64,000 nt of DNA from Phorcus lineatus. Its lineage: Eukaryota > Mollusca > Gastropoda > Trochida > Trochidae. The notes under the pieces were generated by a model that was given only the letters and a program-made list of their open reading frames with translations, did no database searches and was not told the DNA's origin. The translations under genes were made by a program, and so were the position numbers. Positions within the stretch are counted from its first letter, which is position 1. Every line of letters begins with the position of its first letter. Below are positions 16,623 through 46,633 of this stretch, piece after piece. Where the stretch lies: NCBI GenBank assembly GCA_921293015.1, contig OV121091.1, positions 24,288,839 to 24,352,838 of the forward strand, given 5' to 3'.

Positions 16623-17204
16623 TAAAAGTCTCACCTTGTACAACAACATATATACAGTACAATAAAAGAAATATCCGAGCCGCCCATTAAGGGTTATGGG
16701 AGACTATATAAATCTAAAATATAAATGTACAAATGTAAACCTAAAAAATGTAAAGAATAAATATATTTAAATATATGCTATCAGTAAGATATATGGTAAA
16801 ATCAAGCACTGTGATATAAAACATCCTTCCATTTTTTTCAATATAAACTTGCAGGTTTTGGCCGCTAAAAACTGTACATCTTGGTTAGACATAACATAAG
16901 AAGAAAACTGATCAATATCACATTAAACATTAAAATTATCACAGATCTCAGCACATTTAGTTAGAAGACTTACACTAATATTTTTGTTTAAAGGACAATG
17001 GAATAAAACATGGAACTCATTCTCGACACATTCATGACAGTTAAAACTTACACGTTCATTCACAGTCCAATTAGTGTATCGACCTGCTTCAACACGAAGC
17101 GGGACAACTCCACAACGGAATAGAGCAAGAGCACGGCGAGGACCGGGGTAGAGGGCGTTGCAGGTATACTGTTCAACTTCGTAAGAAGATTTGATGTGCC
17201 GTTA
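16623..17204 (-). pseudogene. LINE (non-LTR retrotransposon) 3' end: C-terminal part of ORF2 plus 3' UTR, broken
   Basis: On the minus strand a frame is open from 17201 to a TAA at 16925-16923 (92 codons, no ATG) and continues in the same frame to a TAA at 16769-16767. The peptide carries EVEQYTCNALYP, RRALALFRCGVVPLRVEAGRY, NCHEC and then FHCPLN. This order of an R/G-rich block followed by a C-x2-C ... H-x4-C cluster is the pattern seen downstream of reverse transcriptase in many invertebrate LINEs. It is followed by a 3' untranslated stretch with TCTCCCATAACCCTTAATGG and the CTGT tail. Breaks: an in-frame TAA at 17204-17202, the internal TAA at 16923, and loss of all upstream reverse transcriptase. 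It is a 5'-truncated dead copy; the clade cannot be assigned from this piece. Confidence 0.8.
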
Positions 17205-19149
17205 GAGTCGAAGCTTGTTTTTTTCAGTTCCATGTTTAATCTCCTCGCGGTTTACTGACGTACTCCACTCCTCTTCTGATGACAGTATATATACTCGTTA
17301 CGCATTTTATAGATCACATTGGTATGAAACCGGTTGGTTATCAACTGATATGCAAAGGTTCATCTGCAGTCTTTCATTTTGAAGATTTAAAGACTTATAT
17401 CATCATATATATATATTGAGGATCAATATGTATATAAAGGGATTATTATGGTATAACTATTTGCATAATTCAAACTGCCTATACACTTACGGAGTTAAAA
17501 CTTTCATATCATGAATTTATCCCATCAGTAAAAATGTGAATGCCCAACATGTTGATATAAAGTCAAGGTCAGAAAGCACTACAGGGACGTCGAACTTACA
17601 TTTAATGTTTTTTAAAATATGTGTTTAAAAGTGAAAAAATCAGGCGAACAGTTTTTAATACAGTCTTGATCTAAGGCCTCATTCTTAAAGTCTAAACTTC
17701 AAAGGGGAATAGCACATTTCTTAGATGAATAACATGATCAAACGAAAACCAAAAGACGTGTCTCCAATTCAAGACGATGTCATTTATTCTTTATAAAAAA
17801 AGAACGTACCATGATCTATTAGGTTATGTGAATCTCCCCTTTCACTGTTTCGAAAGTTCAAGTTTCTACCAAAAGTATCACCAATGTGTATACTCTTTGT
17901 GAGCTTCACATAACCCATCGACGGAGCAGTTTGGTTGGATTAAAAAAAAGGCCGGGTAAACAGAGTAATATTTCTAATGTAACGTCCTCGGATGGAATTC
18001 GTATAGAATTTTAAAGAATAAAACCCTATTACAGCGGAAAGGAGAAAGGGTGTAAACCTTGAACAGAGCTATGCTTAGGGCACTTGAGCATGTTTCATTA
18101 GGTAAGTAAAGGGATCTCACGTACTTGTAAAGTAGATTATTCCTTACTAATCGTAAGATAATCTTTGTTTAGCAGTATAAGAATCCCTCATACCAGCGTA
18201 CCAAGTTTGGATAAACTATCAAGTTCGGATAAGTTACGCGAATCAATTTTTCTTATTCGAATGATCGGTGTTCACAGTAGAGTTTTCGCTTGAAACGTGA
18301 AACCTTGTTCCAAAACTAAAGATAATGGTATGAAATAATGGGATGTTTAAGCCTCCTTGACCTTTAAGGAGAATACTTTATATAAACCAATATTGAAAAG
18401 GGAACATTTGAATTAAAAGCATGTTCCTTAAAACGTGCGCCAGTGCCTTTAAAAAGAAAATATAAAACATAAAGGTTGTACAGGTCTTGACAGACTTTAA
18501 AAACGTCCAGTATAGCTTAAAATATGAAAAGGATTAAATAAATTCCACTGCCAATTGTTCTAATGTATTTTGTAACCTGAAAATAAATTATGAATTTAAT
18601 TATTTATTATAAAAAAACTTAATCCTTTGTTGAAGTGTAAACGTAAAAGTAGACACAGACAGCATACTATTCAGCAGCCACAATTAGGTTATTAATCTAT
18701 GAAAAACACTGCGTTACTCGCAATGTAATGAACGCAGAGTACAGAATAAAACTGGAGAGTTGAATCAGATAGACATTCATTACGTGACATGAAACAAACT
18801 GATGTCTTTTAGTTCTGAAATGGTAAGGGTTTAACCGAAAATCTTACAACTCTACGGAAACAAGAACGAAAGGGCAAATTAATAGTTGATATCCGTAGAA
18901 TCTAGCATTTTATGGACCTATAAAAGTGTATTGGCCCCTGCCTCCTGATTGTTATGCTGATGGACGGGGTGTCCAGAGAAAAAGTTTAAATACAGTTGGT
19001 AGTAAAACTATAAGAAACAATTTGTTGTATTTTTTGTTGTGCATGCATTATTGTAATTTGGAGTATCACACGTGAACTGGTTCACAGGTCATCTGAGTTG
19101 CAATGATGAAAACACCACAACGAGATTCAATATATACATAGTATAAAAA
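17205..19149. other. Non-coding stretch, nothing recognised
   Basis: The first 60 bases may still belong to the LINE fragment. Beyond that I see no open frame of note. The final bases before 19150 may contain the 5' terminal region of the Tc1-like element, but I could not match a terminal inverted repeat. Confidence 0.5.
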
Positions 19150-20160
19150 GTGTTTCACCACCCAAATAAACGTTTAGTTATTAAGATAAGTCGTTTAGCC
19201 AGGAAACATGCACTAACCAATGGCGTAAAGAATCGCACCCTCATCGCCTCCCTGAGAGAGGATATATCATTGCTAATTAAGGAATGTAAGAAGGTATTTT
19301 TTCGCTTCCAGTACAACCTTAAAACTTCAATGGCTTCTACAACGTCTGTTCAGTCACCAAACTGTGAGAAATTGACTCAAGGCCGCCTAAAGCGATTGAA
19401 GTCCAGAAGAGTAATCAAGCAACCGAAACTCAATAAAAACCACAAGCAGTTGCGTCTGACATGTTGTAGAGAAAAACTTGGGAAGAATTTAAGATCATGG
19501 AAGAAGGTTCACTGGTCAGACGGAGGCAAGTTCCTCCTGCACTCTGTGGGAGCAGGGTCAGGGTTTGGTGGCGTCCAGGAACATCGTATGCACCACGAAA
19601 CATCATGACATCATGCCGACAGTTCCTTAGGCGGGAAATTTTAAATGTTATGGGGGTGATTCTAGTTTGACTGTGAACTTGATTTTGTGATCATATGGGG
19701 TAACTTGAGATGAGATCGCTAAATCCGGGAAGTCCTTGAACCTGTTGTCGTGCCCTATTTCAACAACCGTGCACTTGTAACACGACCTGTATTCATGGAC
19801 GGTAATTCTAGACGGGATCGTTCACGAGCTGTGAGGCAGGTATTCCAGAACAATGCCCTGACACACCTCCCATGGCCTGCAATGAGTCCTGATCTTAATC
19901 CGCTTGAACATATTTGAGACATTTTGGGCCGACTGGTACAACACAGGGATCCTCCTCCTCAGAACTTTCACGAAATGGAAGCGGCATTACCCGAGGAGGG
20001 GCAGCGATTGCCACAAGAACGATTTCGACGTCTGGTGAGGGGTATCAGGCGAATACTTCAAGCTGTCATTCAAGTGCATGGTGGAAGTTCATTAAGTTTC
20101 ATGGGAATGCTACTCATTCTGGTGGATGTAACGCATTTTAAAAGATTTGGTACAACTGTC
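19150..20160 (+). pseudogene. Tc1-like DNA transposase, inactivated
   Basis: A DDE transposase of the Tc1 group spread over three frames. From 19150 a 152-codon open stretch (opening at GTG, not a true start) has a helix-turn-helix-like part (SRLARKHALTNGVKNRT), then RRVIKQPKLNKNHKQLRL and LRSWKKVHWSDGGKFLLHSV, matching the block that carries the first catalytic Asp; the usual Glu after it is Gly. A frameshift near 19.6 kb leads to EPVVVPYF and FMDGNSRRDRSRAV (19735-19840), where the catalytic Asp of the usual DDN or DN is Gly. Then come WPAMSPDLNPLEHI (catalytic Glu kept), a TGA where Trp is expected, and a C-terminal tail ending near 20100. Several stops and the lost catalytic Asp make it a fossil. 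No terminal inverted repeats were found with confidence. Confidence 0.9.
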
Positions 20161-25773: not shown

Positions 25774-26231
25774 TTAAGTGAAATTCTGAGAAATCATCAA
25801 ATCAATAACAAACTAGGTCAAATGGCATTATTGGGCGTAGCTTTATTACCAGATTACAGAGGCGGAAATGAGACAAGCATTGAACGCCGACCTTAAAGGT
25901 AATGGCAGTTCACGTCTCTTATGACAGGGTTTTGCACATATCATTAGAGAATTACAATGATTGAGGCAACCAAGGGGTACTGCACCTAGTGATGCCCCAA
26001 ATCAAATGAAGGAAAACAACAAAAGCAATTGTGACAACCAAGGGTACTGCACATTGTGATGTCACAAATCATTCATGTCCTTAGCCTACTCACAGTTCAT
26101 TTCACCTCAGCGGGTTTGGTCACACCGAGATGTCACTGCAAAACGGCGGCCGGGCATGAAAAGCAGACCCCGAGGGTCGGAAACAGCAATTATTTATGGA
26201 ACATTTTATGTGCTTGCCTCGAAATCCGCCA
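25774..26231 (-). repeat. Terminal direct repeat B2 of the Ngaro-like element
   Basis: A 458-bp copy matching 26690-27147 base for base as far as I can read, at a constant offset of 916. It forms the outer 3' end of the element. It begins TTAAGTGAAATTC and ends GAAATCCGCCA on the plus strand, after which the two copies diverge at once. Confidence 0.9.
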
Positions 26232-26689
26232 TCCGAATCGAAAGCTGCACCTTCCTGAGAGTACAACATCTGGCATCAATGGATGCTGAAATAATAAAAT
26301 GAACACAGAGCAGAATTGTGCAACATCACATGATTAAACAGTCATTATATACAGATGAATGAATTGAAAAATATCATATACTGGTATTATTTACAGAAAC
26401 ATGAAGCTTACTGTGAATATACTCTATATTCAAAATTATAAAATAACTTGGGTGGGAGAGGAGGGGATAAAACAAAACACGTCTGCTCTCTCTGTTAACC
26501 AGCTTCGAAAGAGGCCGGCAATAACTTTATGACAATCACGTGACTAGTTTATAACTTTTCATTGGATAGCCCCCGTTAATGCTGCAAAGTGCACAGCTTA
26601 CGGTCAAAGGGAGGCAACTCTTGTCACGTAACCCCCTTTACTCCTTCACTTAAATGAATTTATTAAATACAAGATATGAATAAATTTTC
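26232..26689 (-). repeat. Spacer unit A2 between the two B repeats
   Basis: The 458 bp between B2 and B1, happening to be the same length as B. In Ngaro-type architecture this should be the second copy of a repeat whose first copy (A1) starts the element; that first copy is not visible in this window. On the minus strand an AATAAA lies about 30 nt into A2 (26663-26658), a possible polyadenylation signal for the element's transcript. Confidence 0.65.
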
Positions 26690-26698
26690 TTAAGTGAA
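26645..26698. repeat. Inverted repeat spanning the A2/B1 junction
   Basis: TTCACTTAA (26645-26653) and its exact reverse complement TTAAGTGAA (26690-26698) flank about 36 bp that itself pairs partly (TGAATTTATT against AATAAATTTT). The right arm is exactly the first nine bases of repeat B1. A stem at the junction could mark the site used by the recombinase or the circular junction, which is inference. Confidence 0.55.
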
Positions 26699-27147
26699 AT
26701 TCTGAGAAATCATCAAATCAATAACAAACTAGGTCAAATGGCATTATTGGGCGTAGCTTTATTACCAGATTACAGAGGCGGAAATGAGACAAGCATTGAA
26801 CGCCGACCTTAAAGGTAATGGCAGTTCACGTCTCTTATGACAGGGTTTTGCACATATCATTAGAGAATTACAATGATTGAGGCAACCAAGGGGTACTGCA
26901 CCTAGTGATGCCCCAAATCAAATGAAGGAAAACAACAAAAGCAATTGTGACAACCAAGGGTACTGCACATTGTGATGTCACAAATCATTCATGTCCTTAG
27001 CCTACTCACAGTTCATTTCACCTCAGCGGGTTTGGTCACACCGAGATGTCACTGCAAAACGGCGGCCGGGCATGAAAAGCAGACCCCGAGGGTCGGAAAC
27101 AGCAATTATTTATGGAACATTTTATGTGCTTGCCTCGAAATCCGCCA
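26690..27147 (-). repeat. Direct repeat B1 of the Ngaro-like element
   Basis: The inner 458-bp copy, lying 39 bp downstream of the hydrolase stop codon in element orientation. It reads identical to 25774-26231. It is not an LTR: both copies lie on the same side of the coding region. Confidence 0.9.
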
Positions 27148-27186
27148 CCGAACTTGGTATATAGCAAGTTCCGCCAACTAATACAA

Positions 27187-27765
27187 TTAATTCTGGAATG
27201 TGCAAACACCCTTTGTAAGAAATGCCTCCAAACCTCCTTGAAGACCATTCAGAAATATGTCATTTCCTATTGGGGAGAGATGAACACCATCGTCCCGAAA
27301 AAGGTTGGGATCCTCAACCGTTATCTCCCCATGCTTGATATGGCAGCCGCCGCTATCCCTCATTCCTTTACTTCCAAACCTATTGAACCGCCGTCGCTTA
27401 CGCTCCATGGCTATGTCGTCAATGGCCCCCCACCATGTTCTTCGCTGTAGAATGTCCGACCATATCAACTTTGTTTTGCTTGGCAATAAACCTCTAAGCC
27501 TCTGTATGTCTTCTTGCACGGTGCCTAACAACTTCTCCATTGGCATTCTGACTAAATCATTTGAGCCGAGATGGACCAAGAGAATATCGGGCGGCTGGTA
27601 ACTCCGTAACTGTTGAGCCACTATGGGAATGAGGTTGTCCCATTGCATGCCTCGTCGACCGTGCCACCTGATATTAACTCCATGTTTTTCTAGCCCCAAG
27701 TTCATACCTAATGGTCTTGTCACTGCTCGTCTATGGGCCCAGTATATAAGGGATGAACCCATCAT
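27187..27765 (-). CDS. SGNH/GDSL-type hydrolase domain of the retrotransposon
   Basis: 192 codons from ATG. Block I is GSSLIYW (residues 3-9, Ser5 the likely nucleophile), block II a Gly near residues 36-39 (WHGRRGM), block III LGSND (66-70, Asn69 for the oxyanion hole), and block V DGVHLS (159-164, Asp159-x2-His162). These are the catalytic blocks of SGNH esterases/lipases in the correct order at normal domain length. The first strand seems to begin before the ATG: PEIW is encoded in frame directly upstream, and before it lies TTTTTCCAG, a good splice acceptor, with an in-frame TAA at 27786-27784. The real protein may therefore gain an upstream exon. It follows the recombinase stop by 168 nt. 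In related elements the substrate of this enzyme is unknown to me; deacylation of a lipid or sugar ester is only a guess from the fold. Confidence 0.85.
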   Translation of the reverse strand: MMGSSLIYWAHRRAVTRPLGMNLGLEKHGVNIRWHGRRGMQWDNLIPIVAQQLRSYQPPDILLVHLGSNDLVRMPMEKLLGTVQEDIQRLRGLLPSKTKLIWSDILQRRTWWGAIDDIAMERKRRRFNRFGSKGMRDSGGCHIKHGEITVEDPNLFRDDGVHLSPIGNDIFLNGLQGGLEAFLTKGVCTFQN

Positions 27766-27933
27766 CCATATCTCTGGAAAAACTTAATACAGATTAGATG
27801 GGCTGAATTACACAACATTTTTAACATCAACCTTATCATGTAATAAAGTGTGTTTAAAATTATTACCAAAAGGTGATTTTATACAGAAATCTTACAAGTA
27901 ATAAACCCATAATGATAGGCTGGATATGGATGA

Positions 27934-28836
27934 TTACACCGATAGCCTTATGTACCGGGTGTAAGCCAGGGATCTCCATCGTCCCCACTTACAAATGTCA
28001 TCGTGGGAAACTCCTTTGGACGCGGCGTATGTTGCTGCACCTATTCTGAATGAATGTGATTTGAACCGTGATGCGGGCAAGTTTAAGAATATAACTGCTC
28101 GGCTCAATACTGTTGTAAATTGGTATCTTGTGACAGCCTTGCCATTCAAGTGGACAAAAAGATTAGGAAGAGCGGCTGGCCGCAATAAGAGATATTTTCT
28201 CATTGATACCACAGGACAAATACTTTGATCAGACTGGGTAGGCAGGATTATTGTAGTAGAGTGGCCATATTGGTCAGTTTTTGAACGTCGTATGGTTAGC
28301 TGTATGCTGGAGTTGAACATTTTAATATCCTCAAATTGCAATGCACGGTCCGCATTTGCCTCTGTAACCTGGATTATTTCTCCAATCCGCAGGAATCCAA
28401 AAAATGCAATCATGGATATAGCTGTAAACAAGTTTGCTTCAAACTGTGACCTACAAATGTGATGAAAGGCTCTTGGTAGTTGTTTTAGGATATCTATGGT
28501 AATGGGTAACCGTGAATCCATTGATGGGAAAATGCGCCTGTAACCTTTAACACACTTCCTTATCAAATAGCTGTCGGTTGGGTCCTTCCATCCATTGATG
28601 AGGTGGTATCTGCTTAATGCTGAAAGATGCAGGGTGACAGTTGAGTGAGATATGTTCCGGAACGACAAATTGGCAATATAGCATAACACATCGTCTGTTG
28701 ATGCTGGTCCTTTACCACCAATCTTCTTAATTTGACAAAACTGGAAAAATGCCTTGATTGCAGAGCTGTAAGCCTTCATAGAACTTGTTGCAAGTGAATT
28801 GTCGATGAGCCGGTGAGATTCCTCTCTCAACTCCAT
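27934..28836 (-). CDS. Tyrosine recombinase (phage-integrase type) of the retrotransposon
   Basis: 300 codons from the first ATG (28836-28834). It has an N-terminal SAM-like helical core-binding part (residues about 1-95), then the catalytic domain with Arg150 (FFGFLRIGEI), Lys186 (RRSKTDQ), His261-x2-Arg264 (SHSFRIGA), Trp287 (WGRW) and Tyr295 (YTRYIR): the full R-K-H-R-H/W-Y set. Tyrosine recombinases cut and rejoin DNA through a covalent 3'-phosphotyrosine. In DIRS-order elements this enzyme integrates the circular DNA copy, replacing the DDE integrase of LTR elements. The start overlaps the end of the reverse transcriptase frame by ten nt (ATGGAGTTGA), which suggests coupled translation. 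The frame reads open upstream to a TTG at 28854, but the ATG is preferred. No breaks seen. Confidence 0.92.
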   Translation of the reverse strand: MELREESHRLIDNSLATSSMKAYSSAIKAFFQFCQIKKIGGKGPASTDDVLCYIANLSFRNISHSTVTLHLSALSRYHLINGWKDPTDSYLIRKCVKGYRRIFPSMDSRLPITIDILKQLPRAFHHICRSQFEANLFTAISMIAFFGFLRIGEIIQVTEANADRALQFEDIKMFNSSIQLTIRRSKTDQYGHSTTIILPTQSDQSICPVVSMRKYLLLRPAALPNLFVHLNGKAVTRYQFTTVLSRAVIFLNLPASRFKSHSFRIGAATYAASKGVSHDDICKWGRWRSLAYTRYIRLSV

Positions 28837-30452
28837 AAGTGACTTGGGACGCAATCCGGGAATAGGTTGGCTGCAGGAGCCAGCAGACGAAATTTGTTGA
28901 TCTGTTGACGAGAAAGCGAGTCAGCAATAGTATTCTTTTCACCTGGGATATATTCACCTTTAACAGTGAGATTAATTTGTAGACATTTCAAAACAAATTT
29001 TCTGAGAAAGTGCATGACATAATTACATTTTGAAGACTGTTTGTTCAAAATTGCAACCACTGCAGTGTTGTCAGATTTGATTATTATCTTTTTACCTGTA
29101 AGATAGTTATCCCATATGTTTACTGCAACAAAAATTGGGAAGAATTCCAGAAGAGTAATATTCCGTGTCAACTTGTACTCATGCCATGACAAAGGCCAGC
29201 TCCCATAAGCCCATCTCTGGTCAAAGTACAACCCAAATCCTTTGCCCATGCCCCCTGCACTATCTGTATACAACTGTAGTGTTGTATTCATTGTCCAAAA
29301 TCTATCTTGAAAAATTGAAATGCCATTGTGATTTTGTAAAAAGGAGTGCCATACTACAAGATCTTCTTTAAGTGATTTTGTCACTCTGATTTTATGATGA
29401 GGTTTACTAACGCTCCATACAGCATTAATTGTTCTTCGAAGAAAAGCCCGACCAATTGGGATTGCGCGCAAGAAAAATGTTAACAATCCAACTAGACTTT
29501 CTAACTGTTTCCTTGTTACTTTCTTTCTGTGAAGAATACTGTCAAGTTTGCATTTGGCATCCTGGATTTTTTGTACTGGAATCTGTATTTGCTGTTTGAT
29601 GGAATCAATTTTGAATCCCAAAAATTCAATAGAGGTTGAAGGGTAAATAGTTTTATCTTCAGCGATTGGAACACCTAGTTCAGTGCAAAGTTGAAGAAAA
29701 GCTTGTAACACCTTTTCACATTCTTGCTTGTCAGATGCATGTCCTCCAAAGAAGAAATCATCCAGATAATGTATGACATCACCTTGACAATAACTGTGTG
29801 ATAAATGTGATTTTAGATCCCACTGTAGAAACTTTGCAAACTTTTCAAAGATTGAACAGCTAATACTGCATCCCATTGGTAAAACTTTATCAACATAATA
29901 TTTGTTTTTGAATTTTATTCCTAGCAACTTGAAATTTTCTGGAGATAAAATGCATATTCTAAAGGCATTTTTAATGTCTGCTTTGGCCATGTAGCTGCCA
30001 GGTCCAAGTTCCTGGATCATAGATATAGCATCATCTATTGTTGAATATTGCACTGAACAGAGTTCAGGGTCAATGAAGTCATTGATTGATTCGCCCTCAG
30101 GATGAGATAAATGGTGAATTAGCCTGTACTCCCCTCTGGCTTTCTTTGGAATGATACCAATAGGTGAAACTACAAAATCTTTGAAAGGTGGTGAGTCAAA
30201 TGGCCCTGCCATTCTCCCCAGACTTATCTCTTTCTCCAATTTGGTTTGAATAATTTGTTCAAATTTGGGATCTCTGGCTGATAATAAATTTTTGGATTCT
30301 CTAGCACCATGTGTGCCTTGATATTGTAAACTGAAACCATGTGTAAAACCATCTGCAAGAAGTTGTGCATCCTCACGCTCAGGGTAGTTTTTCAGTTCAA
30401 ACAAAAGCTTATTGACTTTTATTGGTGTGGGAGCTGTTACTTTGCAGAACAT
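28827..30452 (-). CDS. Reverse transcriptase / RNase H polyprotein of the retrotransposon
   Basis: 541 codons from ATG. Residues 1-90 are the conserved lead-in of this group (VNKLLFELKNYPE, GFTHGFSL, MAGPFDSPPF). Reverse transcriptase covers about 90-285: SPIGIIPKK, the first Asp at 159 (AKADIKNAF), LPMGCSISCSIFEKF (191-205), and the active-site YLDD at 229-232. RNase H runs from about 392 to 515 with Asp397 (LYTDSAGG), Glu436 (LLEFFP), Asp461 (KSDNTA) and Asp511 (IADSLSR), so all four metal-binding acids are present. It converts the element's RNA to DNA. The frame ends 28829-28827, overlapping the recombinase start. No gag or protease precedes it. A pyrimidine run just before the ATG (CCTTTTTTGTCCT) and an AG soon after could mean that the true 5' part was spliced on, which is unproven. 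Intact; probably functional if expressed. Confidence 0.93.
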   Translation of the reverse strand: MFCKVTAPTPIKVNKLLFELKNYPEREDAQLLADGFTHGFSLQYQGTHGARESKNLLSARDPKFEQIIQTKLEKEISLGRMAGPFDSPPFKDFVVSPIGIIPKKARGEYRLIHHLSHPEGESINDFIDPELCSVQYSTIDDAISMIQELGPGSYMAKADIKNAFRICILSPENFKLLGIKFKNKYYVDKVLPMGCSISCSIFEKFAKFLQWDLKSHLSHSYCQGDVIHYLDDFFFGGHASDKQECEKVLQAFLQLCTELGVPIAEDKTIYPSTSIEFLGFKIDSIKQQIQIPVQKIQDAKCKLDSILHRKKVTRKQLESLVGLLTFFLRAIPIGRAFLRRTINAVWSVSKPHHKIRVTKSLKEDLVVWHSFLQNHNGISIFQDRFWTMNTTLQLYTDSAGGMGKGFGLYFDQRWAYGSWPLSWHEYKLTRNITLLEFFPIFVAVNIWDNYLTGKKIIIKSDNTAVVAILNKQSSKCNYVMHFLRKFVLKCLQINLTVKGEYIPGEKNTIADSLSRQQINKFRLLAPAANLFPDCVPSHLWS

Positions 30453-31874
30453 AGGACAAAAAAGGAATTTATAATGCTATATTTTCCCTTCACGTGTATA
30501 TAAGTCACTAATAATTTTTTAAATCCACTATTGCTTTCATTACATATCTGTTGAGGTATACACACGTTTAACTTGTTTAATGTTGTTGGTTTCAACCACT
30601 AGTTCTTCAGTACGATAACATTTATATCCAGATCATTGGTCAAAGTTGTCACCATCGTATCTTTATACTCTTATTGTCATAAATCTATTGAATAATAAAA
30701 ATGTTACATATGCAGACATTAGTAATACCGTATCTGCATTATTCAGTTATATTCACTGAACAAACAATATAACATATATATGTAGATTATGTAGCTCTTA
30801 TATATCCAACGTTTTCTAAAACAAGGAATCATTCAAAGTTAAACTTTAAAAAAATTGTAGTTACAGGGGGTCAACAATTCTTTTATAGACTTTTTTTTAC
30901 ATGTTTTAACCTCGTTGTTGTTTTTTGTACAATTGGTGAGTAGCCTTAAGACCTTAACAATCACTGTAAGACTAAACATTGTGTACCCATTACGACGTTG
31001 TCATCGGATATGATATTAGCTATCTTCGCAGCCACTTGTGGAAATATGGGATCTAACCCATAACGAGATGAGGGATAAGTGTTATCAGACTGCAAACACA
31101 AACTGTTCTGTTTATCATATGCTTCTGTTGTCGTAAATTGGAGATATTCAAGGATGGGGCTTCATGCGACGCCATAACATTTTTGAAAGGACACCTTCAT
31201 TGTTGAAGTGACGTTATACCATTGTACACATGACGTCATCCCCTCTGTTATATCGTTACTGTAATGAGGAAGTGGTCAAAATGCAATGGTGAAAACATCA
31301 TCGCTTATAACGATAAATATCTTTATTCCTAGTACCTTTGAATATCTGTATTATAAAAGATAACTGAGTGGATACAATAATTTGTAAGTATTAACATGCA
31401 TGAAGAAGTTTTAAATCTTTGCTCAGCATTCTTGTGCATTGTTTTTTTTTTCTAAATGTATTGTTAATATGTTACTTTTTCTAATGTTCATAACCCTGCG
31501 TCTTGATAATGATTGAGATTTGTTTAGGTTAAATTGAATTTCCATTTGCATGATAAGAAGACATGATGTCGTTTCATGTGTTTTCAAGTTTTGTTAATCT
31601 TAAAACCAATACATTTTCCTTAAAATGAGAGATCGCAAGACGTTGGTGCAAGGCTGATGGTTAATTGCTAAAATAATTCATTGTTAACTATTGAGGCATT
31701 TGATCTCCGCCCGCGTATGCTGTTATAGAAATGCTAATACCTGGTCTGGTCTCATTACAAATGACAAGCTGCTAGTTTTATGCGTTACTTATGAATGTCT
31801 TCACTACAGTGTATTCTTCACTACTATTATATAAAATAGATTACTTTGATTACTAATTCTTTGCATATACAAAC

Positions 31875-32480: not shown

Positions 32481-33299
32481 TATTAAGTTATTGTCAGTTC
32501 AAATATTTGAAATTTCAATTTGTCTATTTTGATTTTAACCCTATCAAATCAGTATATTTATTGCTCTAGGTGAAACATTAATTTGTATTGAAATGACGTT
32601 GCGAAAAAATAAAGAAATTGATGTCCATAATGTGCTTGTCCTTATTTTGATTAATATAGTGTACTAATAGCAACCTAAATTACTATTATGTGTCCATACA
32701 TACAGTGATTGCGGTTGACAATATTTTCTGTTGAAACAAAAACCAGTTACTGAATAATCCTTTCTCTCAAACTGAAGCCACAATGTCAAAAAGGTTTGTG
32801 ATTATCCCTATTGCATTGATGAACATGTTATAGATTGTTCGGCTTTGAAAGAGAAATTTCTTTTGACGAGTTTTGATATTGTCAATAAGCGTCCTAATCA
32901 CTGTATTGGAAATAATTCAACATTTGTTCAAACTAAGGTGTATTGACATAGATAACCCTCTGGAGTATTACGATATTAGGTTTGTTTCGAAGATAGACTT
33001 CTATCGTAGGATTAAAGAATGTGTGGATTTAGATTTTGTTACTTGTGTCAGTGTTAGACAATGCCTCAGTCACAAATTTACTGCTCAGTGCGATATATAA
33101 ATGTACCTACATGTAGCTCTTAAAGTCCTTCTCACACTTCTGTATATCTTCACCCCTGAGTTACGTTAGCCCTTTCTCTCATAAGTGATCGTTGGTGGCC
33201 CAAGCCACTCATTGGCATCTTATCTCAGGATCGCCTTTCTTTTTGTATCGTACTGTATTCTGATAAAGAACTGATATTTTCTTTGAATATTGCCAACCA

Positions 33300-33490: not shown

Positions 33491-33846
33491 TTTTTTTGTA
33501 TTTTTTTATTCAGTTCATAAATCATTGTTATCATGTCTTTACATACATTCAAATAAACTTTAATCTGTCATCATTTCTACATGGAATATTACTACTTGTT
33601 ATTTCTAATGTACACATAGACTGGTAATTCAGATCATTGTCATTCATATTATTTATAGTCTATAATAATATAAAAATTGATAATACCTAAGCAAATCTTT
33701 AACCAATAGTCTCCATCTTTAACAAATATAAAGTATTTGTTGTTTTTTGTTGCAATATATTTCTCTATTTTTATTATTTCTTTAAGAGTTTTGTAAAAAT
33801 ATTGAAATGTAGGAATTTTCCCTCTTATGCTCATGTTATGTATGTA
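33491..33846. other. AT-rich spacer between the two duplicated blocks
   Basis: Very AT-rich. The 61-codon minus frame at 33649-33834 is Lys/Ile/Tyr-rich and looks like chance. Confidence 0.6.
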
Positions 33847-38579: not shown

Positions 38580-40640
38580 CGATTCTGCGATCGATTAAAG
38601 CTGATAGTTTCAGTTTTTTTGCTGTAGTTCAAAGTTTTTCGAATTTAGGGCATTTTATTTTCATTGTATGAGTTTACAATGCCTTATATGGTGCCGTCAC
38701 TAAGCTGCCACCTCTGACACTAGTTATCCATGTAATGGCTGCCTGTTAGTGTCTCCCTGACAGATAGTCTTTAATAAATGATTTGTGTTGTCTCGTTGGC
38801 TGCGACCCGTCCACTCATACAGATATCCAATTGCTACCTTGTCTGCGGTTAGTAACGATTGTCAGTCGGTCATAGGGAGATACAACCGATTTAATTTTTA
38901 CTTCAATCTAAACATGTCAATAATTACGTATAAACCCTGCCTTTAAACTTCTGTCTTGAAGAACCGATATCAGAGTCTTTAATTCAAGTCAACACATTCG
39001 AATGCATTTGTCTTTATGACTGTGATATATTAATTAAGATAAAGTTTCTAAAATCACTTACCTGATGTTTATTTATTACTTTGTTTTTTTCGTGCCCATG
39101 AAAGCATTTGCCATTATTTCTTCTGGACATTATCTTTGTGAAACGTTACTGTAAATCATCAACTGATAAAATATCACAATCAGCGAATTAACGATTGATA
39201 CAAACCAGTAAGTTATAGTCAAGATGCCCCTAACAGTAATTATGGGAATGTTTCAATAAACACGTACAAATTAGACTGTTTTCATTTTGTTATTACTTGA
39301 AATATTGATATAACATCCTTGGATTTATAAAGCTTATTTCGAACACGTTTCAAAACTTAATTGTTCCACTTACAGCAGAATATGTTTTCTTCATTTAATC
39401 CACAATTAATATAATTACACCACCAGTTCGAAATGCGTCCTTAATGTTACTAATGCAATTGCTATAACTCTGGTCACCGACTCTGAGCAATTACTTCCTG
39501 TTTAAAATAAGGAGTTCACTCAGTTCACAGTGGATAGTCAGTCCACAGAGAAATGCCATTTGAAATCTGAACATCATTGAAAGACCATTACCACACTGAC
39601 GTCACGTGGAGTTTAAAAACAATTTTGCATGATTTTGGACCTGGATGGTCAGCTCATTTTTATGCATCAATGATTAACATCAATGTCATGTAAAACAAAG
39701 CGAAACCTTCCTTAAATAAATATTTTCCCAAGCATTGTTTAGCAACAACTGACAGCTTGTACATAGTATGTATTTGAGCATTAATTGTTGTTTCTTGAGT
39801 TTTGAAATGACAAACTATTAGGCAGTGTCAACTCGTTGTTCATGATGCACACGCGCACATGTAAGGTAGACATAACATGGAGAATTGCAAGATGCAATGA
39901 GAAACATTAGTTAAGTATAAGCTTTTCTTTTTCAAACCTATTTCCTGTCAGATTCAAAATACACTAAATGCTTCAAAAGTTCTTTCAAAAGCGAATACAA
40001 ACATTTGTAATATAATTTATGAAGGCACTGTCCATAATTTAACCTTTAAGAATACCGATTTCTCCATAGATTCTACCATTTATATGACAATGTGGGCAAA
40101 AGATGTCAATTGTCGCCCACAATTGAAGCAAACCTAAGAGAAAAACAACATATTTATATAAATCGAGTGCCTCGTTTAACCTTAAAATAGGAAATATAAG
40201 AAAAATAGAAGCTAAGAGAGTGTATTGGGTTTTGTAGAAACCAGAGAGGTTTTGTTTGACAGGATCAATATCTCTACAGGATAAGAAAGCAATTTATTAC
40301 AAATATCCGTCTCGATAAAACATATTAGCAAATGAATTATTATGTAAGGTCTGAAACAATAGTAGCATGGATCTGCATAACAGAACGATCCAGAGGGAGA
40401 TGGCAAGAAATTATTATGTGATTTAACTGGATTGAATTGATAATTATATATTGTCTCATAACTATAGGGGACAAAACTTGAATTCGACCTTGCTCTATAT
40501 AAAGTCAAATCGATCGTTGTGTGATTTTAATTTTTTTTTATTAGGACATAGCTTGAATTCAATAAATGGGAGTTATTCCCGAGAACTTTGTGAGGGAAAA
40601 GATTCAAGTATACTTAGTAATGGATCATCCTGACCTTACT
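38580..40640 (+). repeat. Segmental duplication of about 2 kb, left copy
   Basis: Matches 43240-45150 in the same order and orientation at an offset near 4.6 kb, with many substitutions and indels. Landmarks: TGCTGTAGTTCAAAGT (38620), TCCACTCATACAGATATC (38810), GAGTTCACTCAGTTCACAG (39512), GATAGTCAGTC and CAGAGAAATG (39533-39555), AGAAGCTAAGAGAGTGTATT (40207), GATCAATATCTCTACAGGAT (40262), AAAGTCAAATCGA (40500). Blocks inside are lost or gained between copies. No frame is conserved in both, so the tract is probably a non-coding repeat or a decayed mobile element. Confidence 0.85.
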
Positions 40641-43239: not shown

Positions 43240-45150
43240 TTTGAGACTGATTGTTTCAGCTATTATGCTGTAGTTCAAAGTCTTTTTCGAAGTTTTGGCA
43301 TTTCAATTTCATTTTATGAGTGTGCAATGATTTATTTAGGGCTGTCCCTCGGCTGTCACCTCTGACACGAGTTATCCATTTAACGACTTCCTGGTAGTGT
43401 ATTCCAGACAAATATTTTTTAATTGATGATTTTTGTTGTCTCGTTAGCTGCGGCTCGTCCACTCATACAGATATCTATGTCTGTATTTAGTAACAATTGT
43501 CAATTAGTGACAAGGGAAGACAACGCATTTTAGATTTTACTTAGATATAGATAAAGACATGTCAATGATTGCGTATAAACCATTCCGACTGGAAAAAAAT
43601 ATTAGTTTCAAATACTAGTCACTTTAAGAAATTTGTGTAAATTCAGAATTTGAGCTGAATATTTTACCTTCAATTAATCCACACCTTATATAACTACAAA
43701 CTCCAAAAAACCCCCGAAATATCTGAAAATGCTATGAACATGGAAATTTAGTTTTCAGTTGAATGAATACTTAGTGGAAGGTCTGTATGTACTGTTATCA
43801 GACAGTTTTGTTATCAAACAAATGTAAAAATTCATTATTGTTAGTTATTTCTGTAATCTTTTGTACTGAATATCTATTGATTGATGACTGAAACATTGAG
43901 TGTATCTCTTTAAAACATATCTTGCAACTCTTCCAACTGAAGCTATGCTTCCACATCATAGTAGACCATACATCGTGTAAAGAAAGTGGAACTGCCGCCA
44001 CCAATCAGTTCTTTCTCGTTGATAAGATTTTTTTCTGTACCTGGTAGCAGCTAAATAAGAACTCTTTTACTTGTATTGGACATTGAAATTCGTCCTTTTA
44101 GTGTCTAACGCAATTGTTATAACTCTAGTCAAAGGCTGAGAGAAATGTACTTCCTGTTCTAAAACGGAGTTCACTCAGTTCACAGCGGATAGTCAGTCAA
44201 CAGAGAAATGTCACTTGCAATTTGATCCTCACTGCAAGACAGTTAGCACAATGACCTCACAGGGAGATTAAACGCAGTGTTCCACGAGTTTGAAACTGGA
44301 TGTCAGCGTGTTTTGCCAAACAAGACGGGGAAAATAAAGCAAAATCATCATTAAACAAGATCTTCCACCAAACAACATATCCCATATATAAATAAATTGA
44401 CAACATTTATGTATTTGAGATTAAAATGTTTTTCTAGTTTTGTGAAATGTTCATGTTGTAAGGTAGACATAATATGAAATTAAAGAGTTGCAACGTGAAA
44501 CAAAATTTAAGTGTAGGTAATTCTTCTCAGTTCAAATTTTATTGTAATCAGTTTCAAAATACACTGAATGTTTCAAAAGTTCTTTTAAAATTGAATACAA
44601 ACTTTTATAATAATTTTTATGAAATAAGTTGCCCATAATAACGGCAAGATTTGTTAAGAACACTGACTTCTCCAAAAAATAATTTTTATGTCAGTGTGAG
44701 CAAAATCATTCAAGTTTCGCTTTCAACTGAAGCAAATGTCTGGGAAACAGAACATGTATAAAACGAGTGTCTTCTTTACCCCAAACTAGGAAATAAAGGA
44801 TAAATAGAAGCTAAGAGAGTGTATTGGGTGTTGAAGAGACCAGAGAGGCTTGGTAAGATCAATATCTCTACAGGATCAGAAAGCAATATATTACAGAAAT
44901 ATACCAAAGAAAACATACTGTTAAAGTCATGTGTGTAGTTAACTAAAAAAAAATGAACTAGGCTTTGCTCTCTTTAAAGTCAAATCGACATTTGTGTTAA
45001 TTGACTAAGTTTAAGTGCCAAATGGACTTGAAATTGAATGGTATTTATATTTGATATCATTGTCTTTCTGGAATCATTTAAAAGGACAAGGTTGGAGATT
45101 TTTAATTTTTTAAAAGAGATTTATTCCCAAAATCTGTGTGAGAGAAATAT
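43240..45150 (+). repeat. Segmental duplication of about 2 kb, right copy
   Basis: Partner of 38580-40640. Landmarks: TGCTGTAGTTCAAAGT (43269), TCCACTCATACAGATATC (43458), GAGTTCACTCAGTTCACAG (44166), CAGAGAAATG (44201), AGAAGCTAAGAGAGTGTATT (44806), GATCAATATCTCTACAGGAT (44858), AAAGTCAAATCGA (44977). Confidence 0.85.
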
Positions 45151-46561: not shown

Positions 46562-46633
46562 ATTGAGGACATCCTGCTAAATCAGCGTATTTGAATCCGC
46601 TCTGATACGCTAATATAACAGGATGATTGAGGA
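46562..46633. mobile_element. 56-bp minimal inverted-repeat element with 8-bp target duplication
   Basis: Element 46570-46625, flanked by perfect copies of ATTGAGGA (46562-46569 and 46626-46633). Its ends are inverse complements: CATCCTGCTAAATCAGCGTA at the left and, at the right, a stretch whose complement reads CATCCTGTTATATTAGCGTA. A GAATCCGCT lies in the middle. The same ends and the same GAATCCGCT occur in the 335-bp element at 63437-63771. It has no coding capacity and must be moved by a transposase encoded elsewhere. An 8-bp duplication fits hAT (and P) superfamily transposition; the family is not proven. Confidence 0.85.

Follow-up and report, generated by a model that had tools for sequence, protein, structure and literature searches.

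A probable fragment of a Ngaro-like retrotransposon in the gastropod Phorcus lineatus carries a frame for an SGNH hydrolase

INTRODUCTION

Ngaro-like retrotransposons published for Xenopus carry frames for gag, reverse transcriptase/RNase H (RT/RH), tyrosine recombinase (YR), and an SGNH hydrolase, with split direct repeats (SDRs) arranged as A1...B1-A2-B2 (PMC9210276). Ngaro elements have been reported from most animal phyla examined in one study (PMC4157794) and from bivalves and two gastropods (PMC10294476). Here, we describe a locus of this kind in a 64-kb stretch of contig OV121091.1 of the gastropod Phorcus lineatus, which as a whole is referred to below as the window. The element at positions 25774-30476 of the window is very probably a Ngaro-like retrotransposon of the DIRS order that bears an SGNH hydrolase frame and that inserted recently, in a copy truncated at its 5′ end.

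Among the described elements, Xenopus DIRS-53_XT has the same order of RT/RH, YR, and then SGNH, and its SDRs have 100% identical partners, although its repeats are 236 bp (A) and 152 bp (B) long, while A2 and B at our locus measure 458 nt each (PMC9210276). The Xenopus families also differ from our locus in that A1 and gag are missing here and in that the SGNH frame lies 150 nt from YR here but overlaps it there. In two Xenopus families, all frames overlap, and Xenopus Ngaro copies range from well conserved to degenerate, primarily because the 5′ and/or 3′ SDRs have been lost wholly or in part (PMC9210276). Ngaro types 1 to 4 of Cafeteria burkhardae share the A1-[open reading frames]-B1A2B2 layout, RT/RH, and YR, and several copies have 5′ deletions that cover the first open reading frame (ORF1); in contrast to our locus, their host is a protist and no hydrolase is mentioned in the main text of the source (PMC8547959).

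SGNH hydrolases are also borne by other retroelements. The ZfL2-1-type ORF1 esterase of L2/CR1 long interspersed nuclear elements (LINEs) is one example, although it belongs to a non-long terminal repeat (non-LTR) element and occupies a gag-like position before pol (PMC3905857). GDSL frames also occur in LTR and Penelope-like elements of bdelloids, which acquired them in captures separate from those of LINEs (PMC5408684). An SGNH frame located after YR has been reported for amphibian Ngaro-like elements (PMC9210276), which was the only article retrieved by our full-text literature search for Ngaro with SGNH (most subscription journals lie outside the coverage of that search). The linkage of SGNH to Ngaro-like elements is already known, and our locus is a new example of it rather than a new element type.

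RESULTS

Gene order and 3′ repeats match the Ngaro layout

Three frames and a block of three repeats follow one another on the minus strand, in the order given here.

28827..30476, minus strand: RT/RNase H frame, 549 codons from stop to stop; first ATG at 30452; YLDD at 29768-29757
27934..28920, minus strand: YR frame, 328 codons from stop to stop; first ATG at 28836-28834
27187..27783, minus strand: SGNH hydrolase frame of 198 codons; no ATG before codons 7 and 8, which immediately precede the GSS at codon 9
26690..27147, minus strand: B1 repeat, 458 nt
26232..26689, minus strand: A2 repeat, 458 nt, between B1 and B2
25774..26231, minus strand: B2 repeat, 458 nt, identical to B1; the 3′ end of the element is at 25774

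Because the RT/RH, YR, SGNH order, the lack of a detected methyltransferase, and the B1-A2-B2 3′ end match published elements, Ngaro-like appears to be the best label for the locus, and it rests on layout. Since we read the absent A1 as a truncation of this copy, we word the claim as a fragment of a Ngaro-like element, in which neither A1 nor gag was encountered.

We evaluated the frame lengths against 100 first-order Markov simulations of the window, in which the longest frame had a median of 133 and a maximum of 227 codons. The RT (549 codons) and YR (328 codons) frames are longer than every simulated longest frame. Next in length are two frames of 124 and 105 codons, which cover the SGNH frame on the opposite strand and are within chance.

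Catalytic residues were assigned from known motifs, without alignment. In addition to YLDD, the RT frame has the four RNase H acids (in TDSAGG, LLEF, SDNTA, and ADSLSR). Its match to the Pfam family RVT_1 is above the cut-off (E = 5.1e−15) and its match to RT_RNaseH is below it (E = 2e−4). The best NCBIfam match is a group II intron RT model (21.7 versus a 300-bit cut-off), which tells only that the protein is an RT, and a PDB sequence search retrieved one RT relative, 7ksf (E = 3.4e−4). The YR frame contains R (LRIGEI), K (RSKTD), H-x-x-R (HSFR), W (KWGRW), and Y (YTRY). In Pfam, it matches Phage_integrase (E = 1.6e−5, 25.2 bits versus a cut-off of 27.1) and Phage_int_SAM_4 (E = 1.3e−5), in neither case above the cut-off, and it matches Xer/integron-integrase profiles of NCBIfam weakly. 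The RT frame closes with a stop codon (28829-28827) just downstream of the first ATG of YR, which is read in a different frame. This overlap of YR with the last part of RT would lend itself to stop-restart translation.

B1 and B2 are identical across their 458 nt. In the published model, SDR partners hardly differ when an element inserts (PMC6681497), and under that model the identity suggests a recent insertion, with gene conversion as the alternative. The B1-A2-B2 block would speak for SDRs rather than for the inverted terminal repeats and internal complementary region of DIRS1-like elements. The sole entry from a search for inverted repeats (arms of at least 20 nt, exact seeds of 12) is a palindrome at 32490-32519, which is not part of the element, and the missing 5′ end would hide a left inverted terminal repeat.

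These results agree in most respects with a preliminary description of this DNA, which had been drawn from its letters alone. The coordinates it gave are correct, as B2 ends at 25774 and RT has its first ATG at 30452. The YLDD and four RNase H acids that it listed are both present in the 549-codon frame, as are all six positions of its R-K-H-R-W-Y set in YR and its B1-A2-B2 3′ end (458-458-458 nt). It had also described the group as known, and a Ngaro-like layout with SGNH after YR has indeed been published for Xenopus (PMC9210276). The Ngaro architecture that it assigned is borne out in the frame order, the lack of a detected methyltransferase, and the B1-A2-B2 block, but not in A1 and the gag frame, which are missing in this copy.

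Other features of the repeats

A2 and B are exactly equal in length and have no similarity to each other. We rejected tandem duplication as the origin of the equal lengths, as A2 has no match to B, and take them as a coincidence. Each B holds an imperfect internal duplication of ~45 nt with 84% identity (25960-26071 and 26876-26987).

Splice sites were scored with a rough hand-written matrix, under which the minus strand has 3,664 donors and 3,393 acceptors. A2 contains an acceptor-like site, TTATTTCAG (exon start 26285), that is outscored by only 52 of the 3,393 acceptors, and downstream of it an ATG at 26276 opens a frame that continues to the end of A2. If A1 was identical to A2, the element may have a spliced leader, and the start of gag may lie within A1. 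TATAAA in A2 (26553) and AATAAA in both B copies (26763 and 25847) would fit promoter and poly(A) signals. Given that these words occur 61 and 88 times, respectively, on the minus strand of the window, they count for little, and TATAAA was dropped. A scan of the repeats for bacterial promoters and terminators (5 versus 3.9 expected, and 5 versus 1.2) was not used, because it is not meaningful for a eukaryote.

The hydrolase frame has a doubtful start

In the SGNH frame, we located the serine in GSS, the asparagine in GSND, and the histidine in DGVH (DDGVH), while the glycine of block II was placed by eye in GMQW. The length of the frame (198 codons) exceeds the simulated median of 133 but not the maximum of 227 codons, and the case for it therefore rests on the motifs, on Pfam matches below the curated cut-offs (Lipase_GDSL_2, E = 7.1e−5; Lipase_GDSL, E = 7.7e−4), and on its position between YR and B1. 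No NCBIfam match was obtained for the frame at E = 0.1. A single-sequence structure model of the hydrolase (mean predicted local distance difference test score, 34.3) was too poor for a fold search.

In the SGNH fold, a start at codon 7 or 8 would remove most of the first strand. The frame would therefore need an upstream exon or another start, or else it would be N-terminally broken. A candidate intron that could supply such an exon is positioned as follows.

27772..27895, minus strand: candidate intron between the YR and SGNH frames; donor GT at 27895, acceptor AG with its last base at 27774 or 27772

Its donor is outscored by 178 of the 3,664 donors of the strand, and its first acceptor (exon start 27773) by 196 of the 3,393 acceptors, but this pairing does not preserve the frame of the ATG at 27910. 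The second acceptor, 2 nt further (exon start 27771), is in frame with that ATG but weaker (831 of 3,393 score higher). Several donor/acceptor pairs read by hand gave none that was compelling, and a YR-SGNH splice fusion was rejected. Because one pairing in three falls in frame by chance, we leave the N-terminus as doubtful.

It is quite possible, although not the outcome that we favor, that the SGNH frame is N-terminally broken and not expressed in this copy, and that the element carries a decaying SGNH gene. The frame has no ATG before codon 7 while block I begins at codon 9, the better of the two splice pairings is the one that is out of frame and the signals are moderate, and the 150 nt that separate the YR stop from the SGNH frame contrast with the overlap of all frames in Xenopus families (PMC9210276). 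On the other hand, the remainder of the frame is open, catalytic motifs included, and an in-frame pairing with the second acceptor exists. The preliminary description had called the hydrolase intact; its GSS, GSND, and DGVH are present in an open frame, but the word is too strong for a frame whose first ATGs directly precede block I. Nor could we confirm that the copy as a whole is well preserved, given the undetected A1, the lack of an upstream frame of at least 80 codons, and the doubtful SGNH start.

The 5′ end is missing

Several observations weigh against our assignment. A1 was not found in the window: A2 matches only itself at E = 0.01, and its first 20 nt, with up to 3 mismatches allowed, are present only in A2. 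One half of the SDR definition is therefore unmet in this copy. No gag frame was found either, and the minus strand has no frame of at least 80 codons between RT and position 33500 (the longest has 69). The SGNH frame has no good start and its Pfam matches fall below the cut-offs. A PDB sequence search with the hydrolase gave four chains up to E = 1, of which the best two are Mediator subunit 28 (a chance match), and the retroelement ORF1 protein 4c1b, which we take to be the ZfL2-1 ORF1 esterase, matched only at E = 0.76.

Additionally, no relative by which RT or YR could be placed in a tree was found among viral, phage, and GTDB collections, although these searches covered prokaryotes and viruses, where absence says little. 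Against viral contigs, SGNH had no pattern match, and none of the pattern matches of RT (1) and YR (7) was confirmed. A tblastn search of phages with SGNH and RT gave no match at E = 1. The 17 IMG/VR stretches retrieved with two motif patterns (15 and 2) include no relative (best tblastn E values of 0.20 for RT, 3.4 for YR, and 4.0 for SGNH), and a third motif pattern retrieved no stretches from the collections of genome contigs and viral contigs.

Because A2 has no second match, no upstream frame reaches 80 codons, and stretches of the upstream DNA are repeat-like from 31878 on, we conclude that A1 and gag were lost from this copy or lost in assembly. We regard it as unlikely that the element is whole and that its A1 and gag either lie outside the window, separated from RT by a very long intron or a nested insertion, or were dropped through a misassembly where RT starts. 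Such a scenario would be in line with the identity of B1 and B2, which suggests a young copy whose 5′ end is nevertheless gone, and with acceptor-like sites at 30439 and 30433, close to the start of the RT frame. However, these sites are mediocre (640 and 780 of 3,393 acceptors score higher), no A1-like sequence was found in the 33.5 kb upstream, and stretches of the upstream DNA from 31878 on match repeats elsewhere in the window.

Our assignment to Ngaro-like elements also draws on what follows RT/RH. A methyltransferase of the DIRS/PAT type was not found there with Pfam, in that no methyltransferase family is among the matches of the RT/RH frame at E values up to 1, and the frame stops 26 codons past the last RNase H motif. 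The RT carries a motif of Ngaro RTs, P-M-G-C-x-x-S-C-x-x-F-E, which may speak against a PAT-like origin. PAT-like elements also have SDRs, and Caenorhabditis briggsae reportedly has a lineage with convergence of this kind (PMC4157794). A PAT-like element that lost its methyltransferase and converged on the Ngaro layout is nevertheless highly improbable here, in that SGNH after YR has been reported for Ngaro-like elements and none is described for PAT in the literature that we consulted.

A dyad spans the B1/A2 junction

The B1/A2 junction is straddled by an imperfect dyad that is absent from the preliminary description.

26645..26698, no strand assigned: 54-nt dyad, proposed YR core site; 20-nt arms, 17/20 complementary, 14-nt loop

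The dyad has 9 nt in B1 and 45 nt in A2. It was first spotted by eye, and the thresholds (20-nt arms, at least 17 complementary positions, loop of up to 20 nt) were set afterwards. A scan of the window at these thresholds gave three matches, two overlapping ones at 46570-46625 and the one at 26645-26698, which is the sole match within the element. Dyads of this quality arose in 0 of 60 element-length and 1 of 2,000 junction-length simulations, figures that are subject to the thresholds having been set after the dyad had been seen. When folded as single-stranded DNA, the 81 nt around the dyad are more stable than 200 of 200 shuffles (z = −3.45). No word starting with "palindrom" occurs in PMC9210276, PMC6681497, PMC4157794, PMC8547959, or PMC3783388.

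In the published model of the life cycle, the B-A junction is the junction of the circle, and a dyad at B1/A2 would for that reason be a natural site for the recombinase. We tentatively suggest, while regarding it as rather doubtful, that the dyad is the core site of YR in this Ngaro lineage, broken apart when the element integrates and restored solely in the circle and at the internal junction, and that the hydrolase is translated from a spliced RNA, in contrast to the overlapping frames of Xenopus. The post hoc thresholds count against a YR core site, as do the comparable dyad outside the element (46570-46625; 20-nt arms, 17 paired) and the position of the B/A boundary, which falls inside one arm (9 nt in) and not between the arms, at the center, as it would in a lox-like site. 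A role of the dyad in transcription or strand transfer fits too.

Other features of the window

The window was called eukaryotic from its content only. Of six motif strings counted as possible signs of a mollusc, four are absent, one variant is present once, inside A2, and the short generic one is present 4 times, which carries no weight either way. No Rfam family reached the gathering score in the window, and ARAGORN (bacterial code) detected no tRNA. Of the 88 frames of at least 70 codons, 10 were tried against Pfam, without a match at E = 0.1. A 153-codon frame at 19147-19608 (plus strand), in a GC-richer patch, has no Pfam match and reads like what we presume to be a decayed Tc1/mariner transposase. 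A 92-codon frame at 16923-17201 (minus strand) has a Cys/His pattern and likewise no Pfam match, and may be a LINE C-terminal segment. Pairs of diverged direct repeats at 38635-40255 and 43283-44854 (75 to 85% identical, ~4.6 kb apart) suggest an old duplication or a dispersed repeat.

DISCUSSION

In a full-length parent of this copy, the RNA would start inside A1 and end in the B2 region. The encoded RT would copy this RNA, with the internal B1-A2 block as the template for the ends that are lost from it, and a circle with a single B-A junction would form. YR would then insert the circle by strand exchange at the B-A junction, where the 54-nt dyad, as it lies across B1/A2, may act as the recombinase-binding core.

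The preliminary description had called the role of the hydrolase unclear, in line with the SGNH proteins of amphibian Ngaro-like elements, which are without proven function (PMC9210276). Most likely, the hydrolase has no part in the movement of the DNA as such. The ZfL2-1 esterase of LINEs binds liposomes and anionic phospholipids (PMC3905857), and by analogy the hydrolase may bind or cleave a lipid or other ester at a membrane during assembly or transport of the ribonucleoprotein.

Apart from the junction dyad and the testable proteins, the finding is ordinary. The copy is young, its RT, YR, and hydrolase frames are open, and it offers testable reagents for YR, and for the hydrolase once its N-terminus is settled. 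The dyad, in turn, is a defined candidate substrate with which the recombinase could be assayed in vitro. If the dyad is indeed the core site of YR, each integrated copy would retain one intact internal recombination site.

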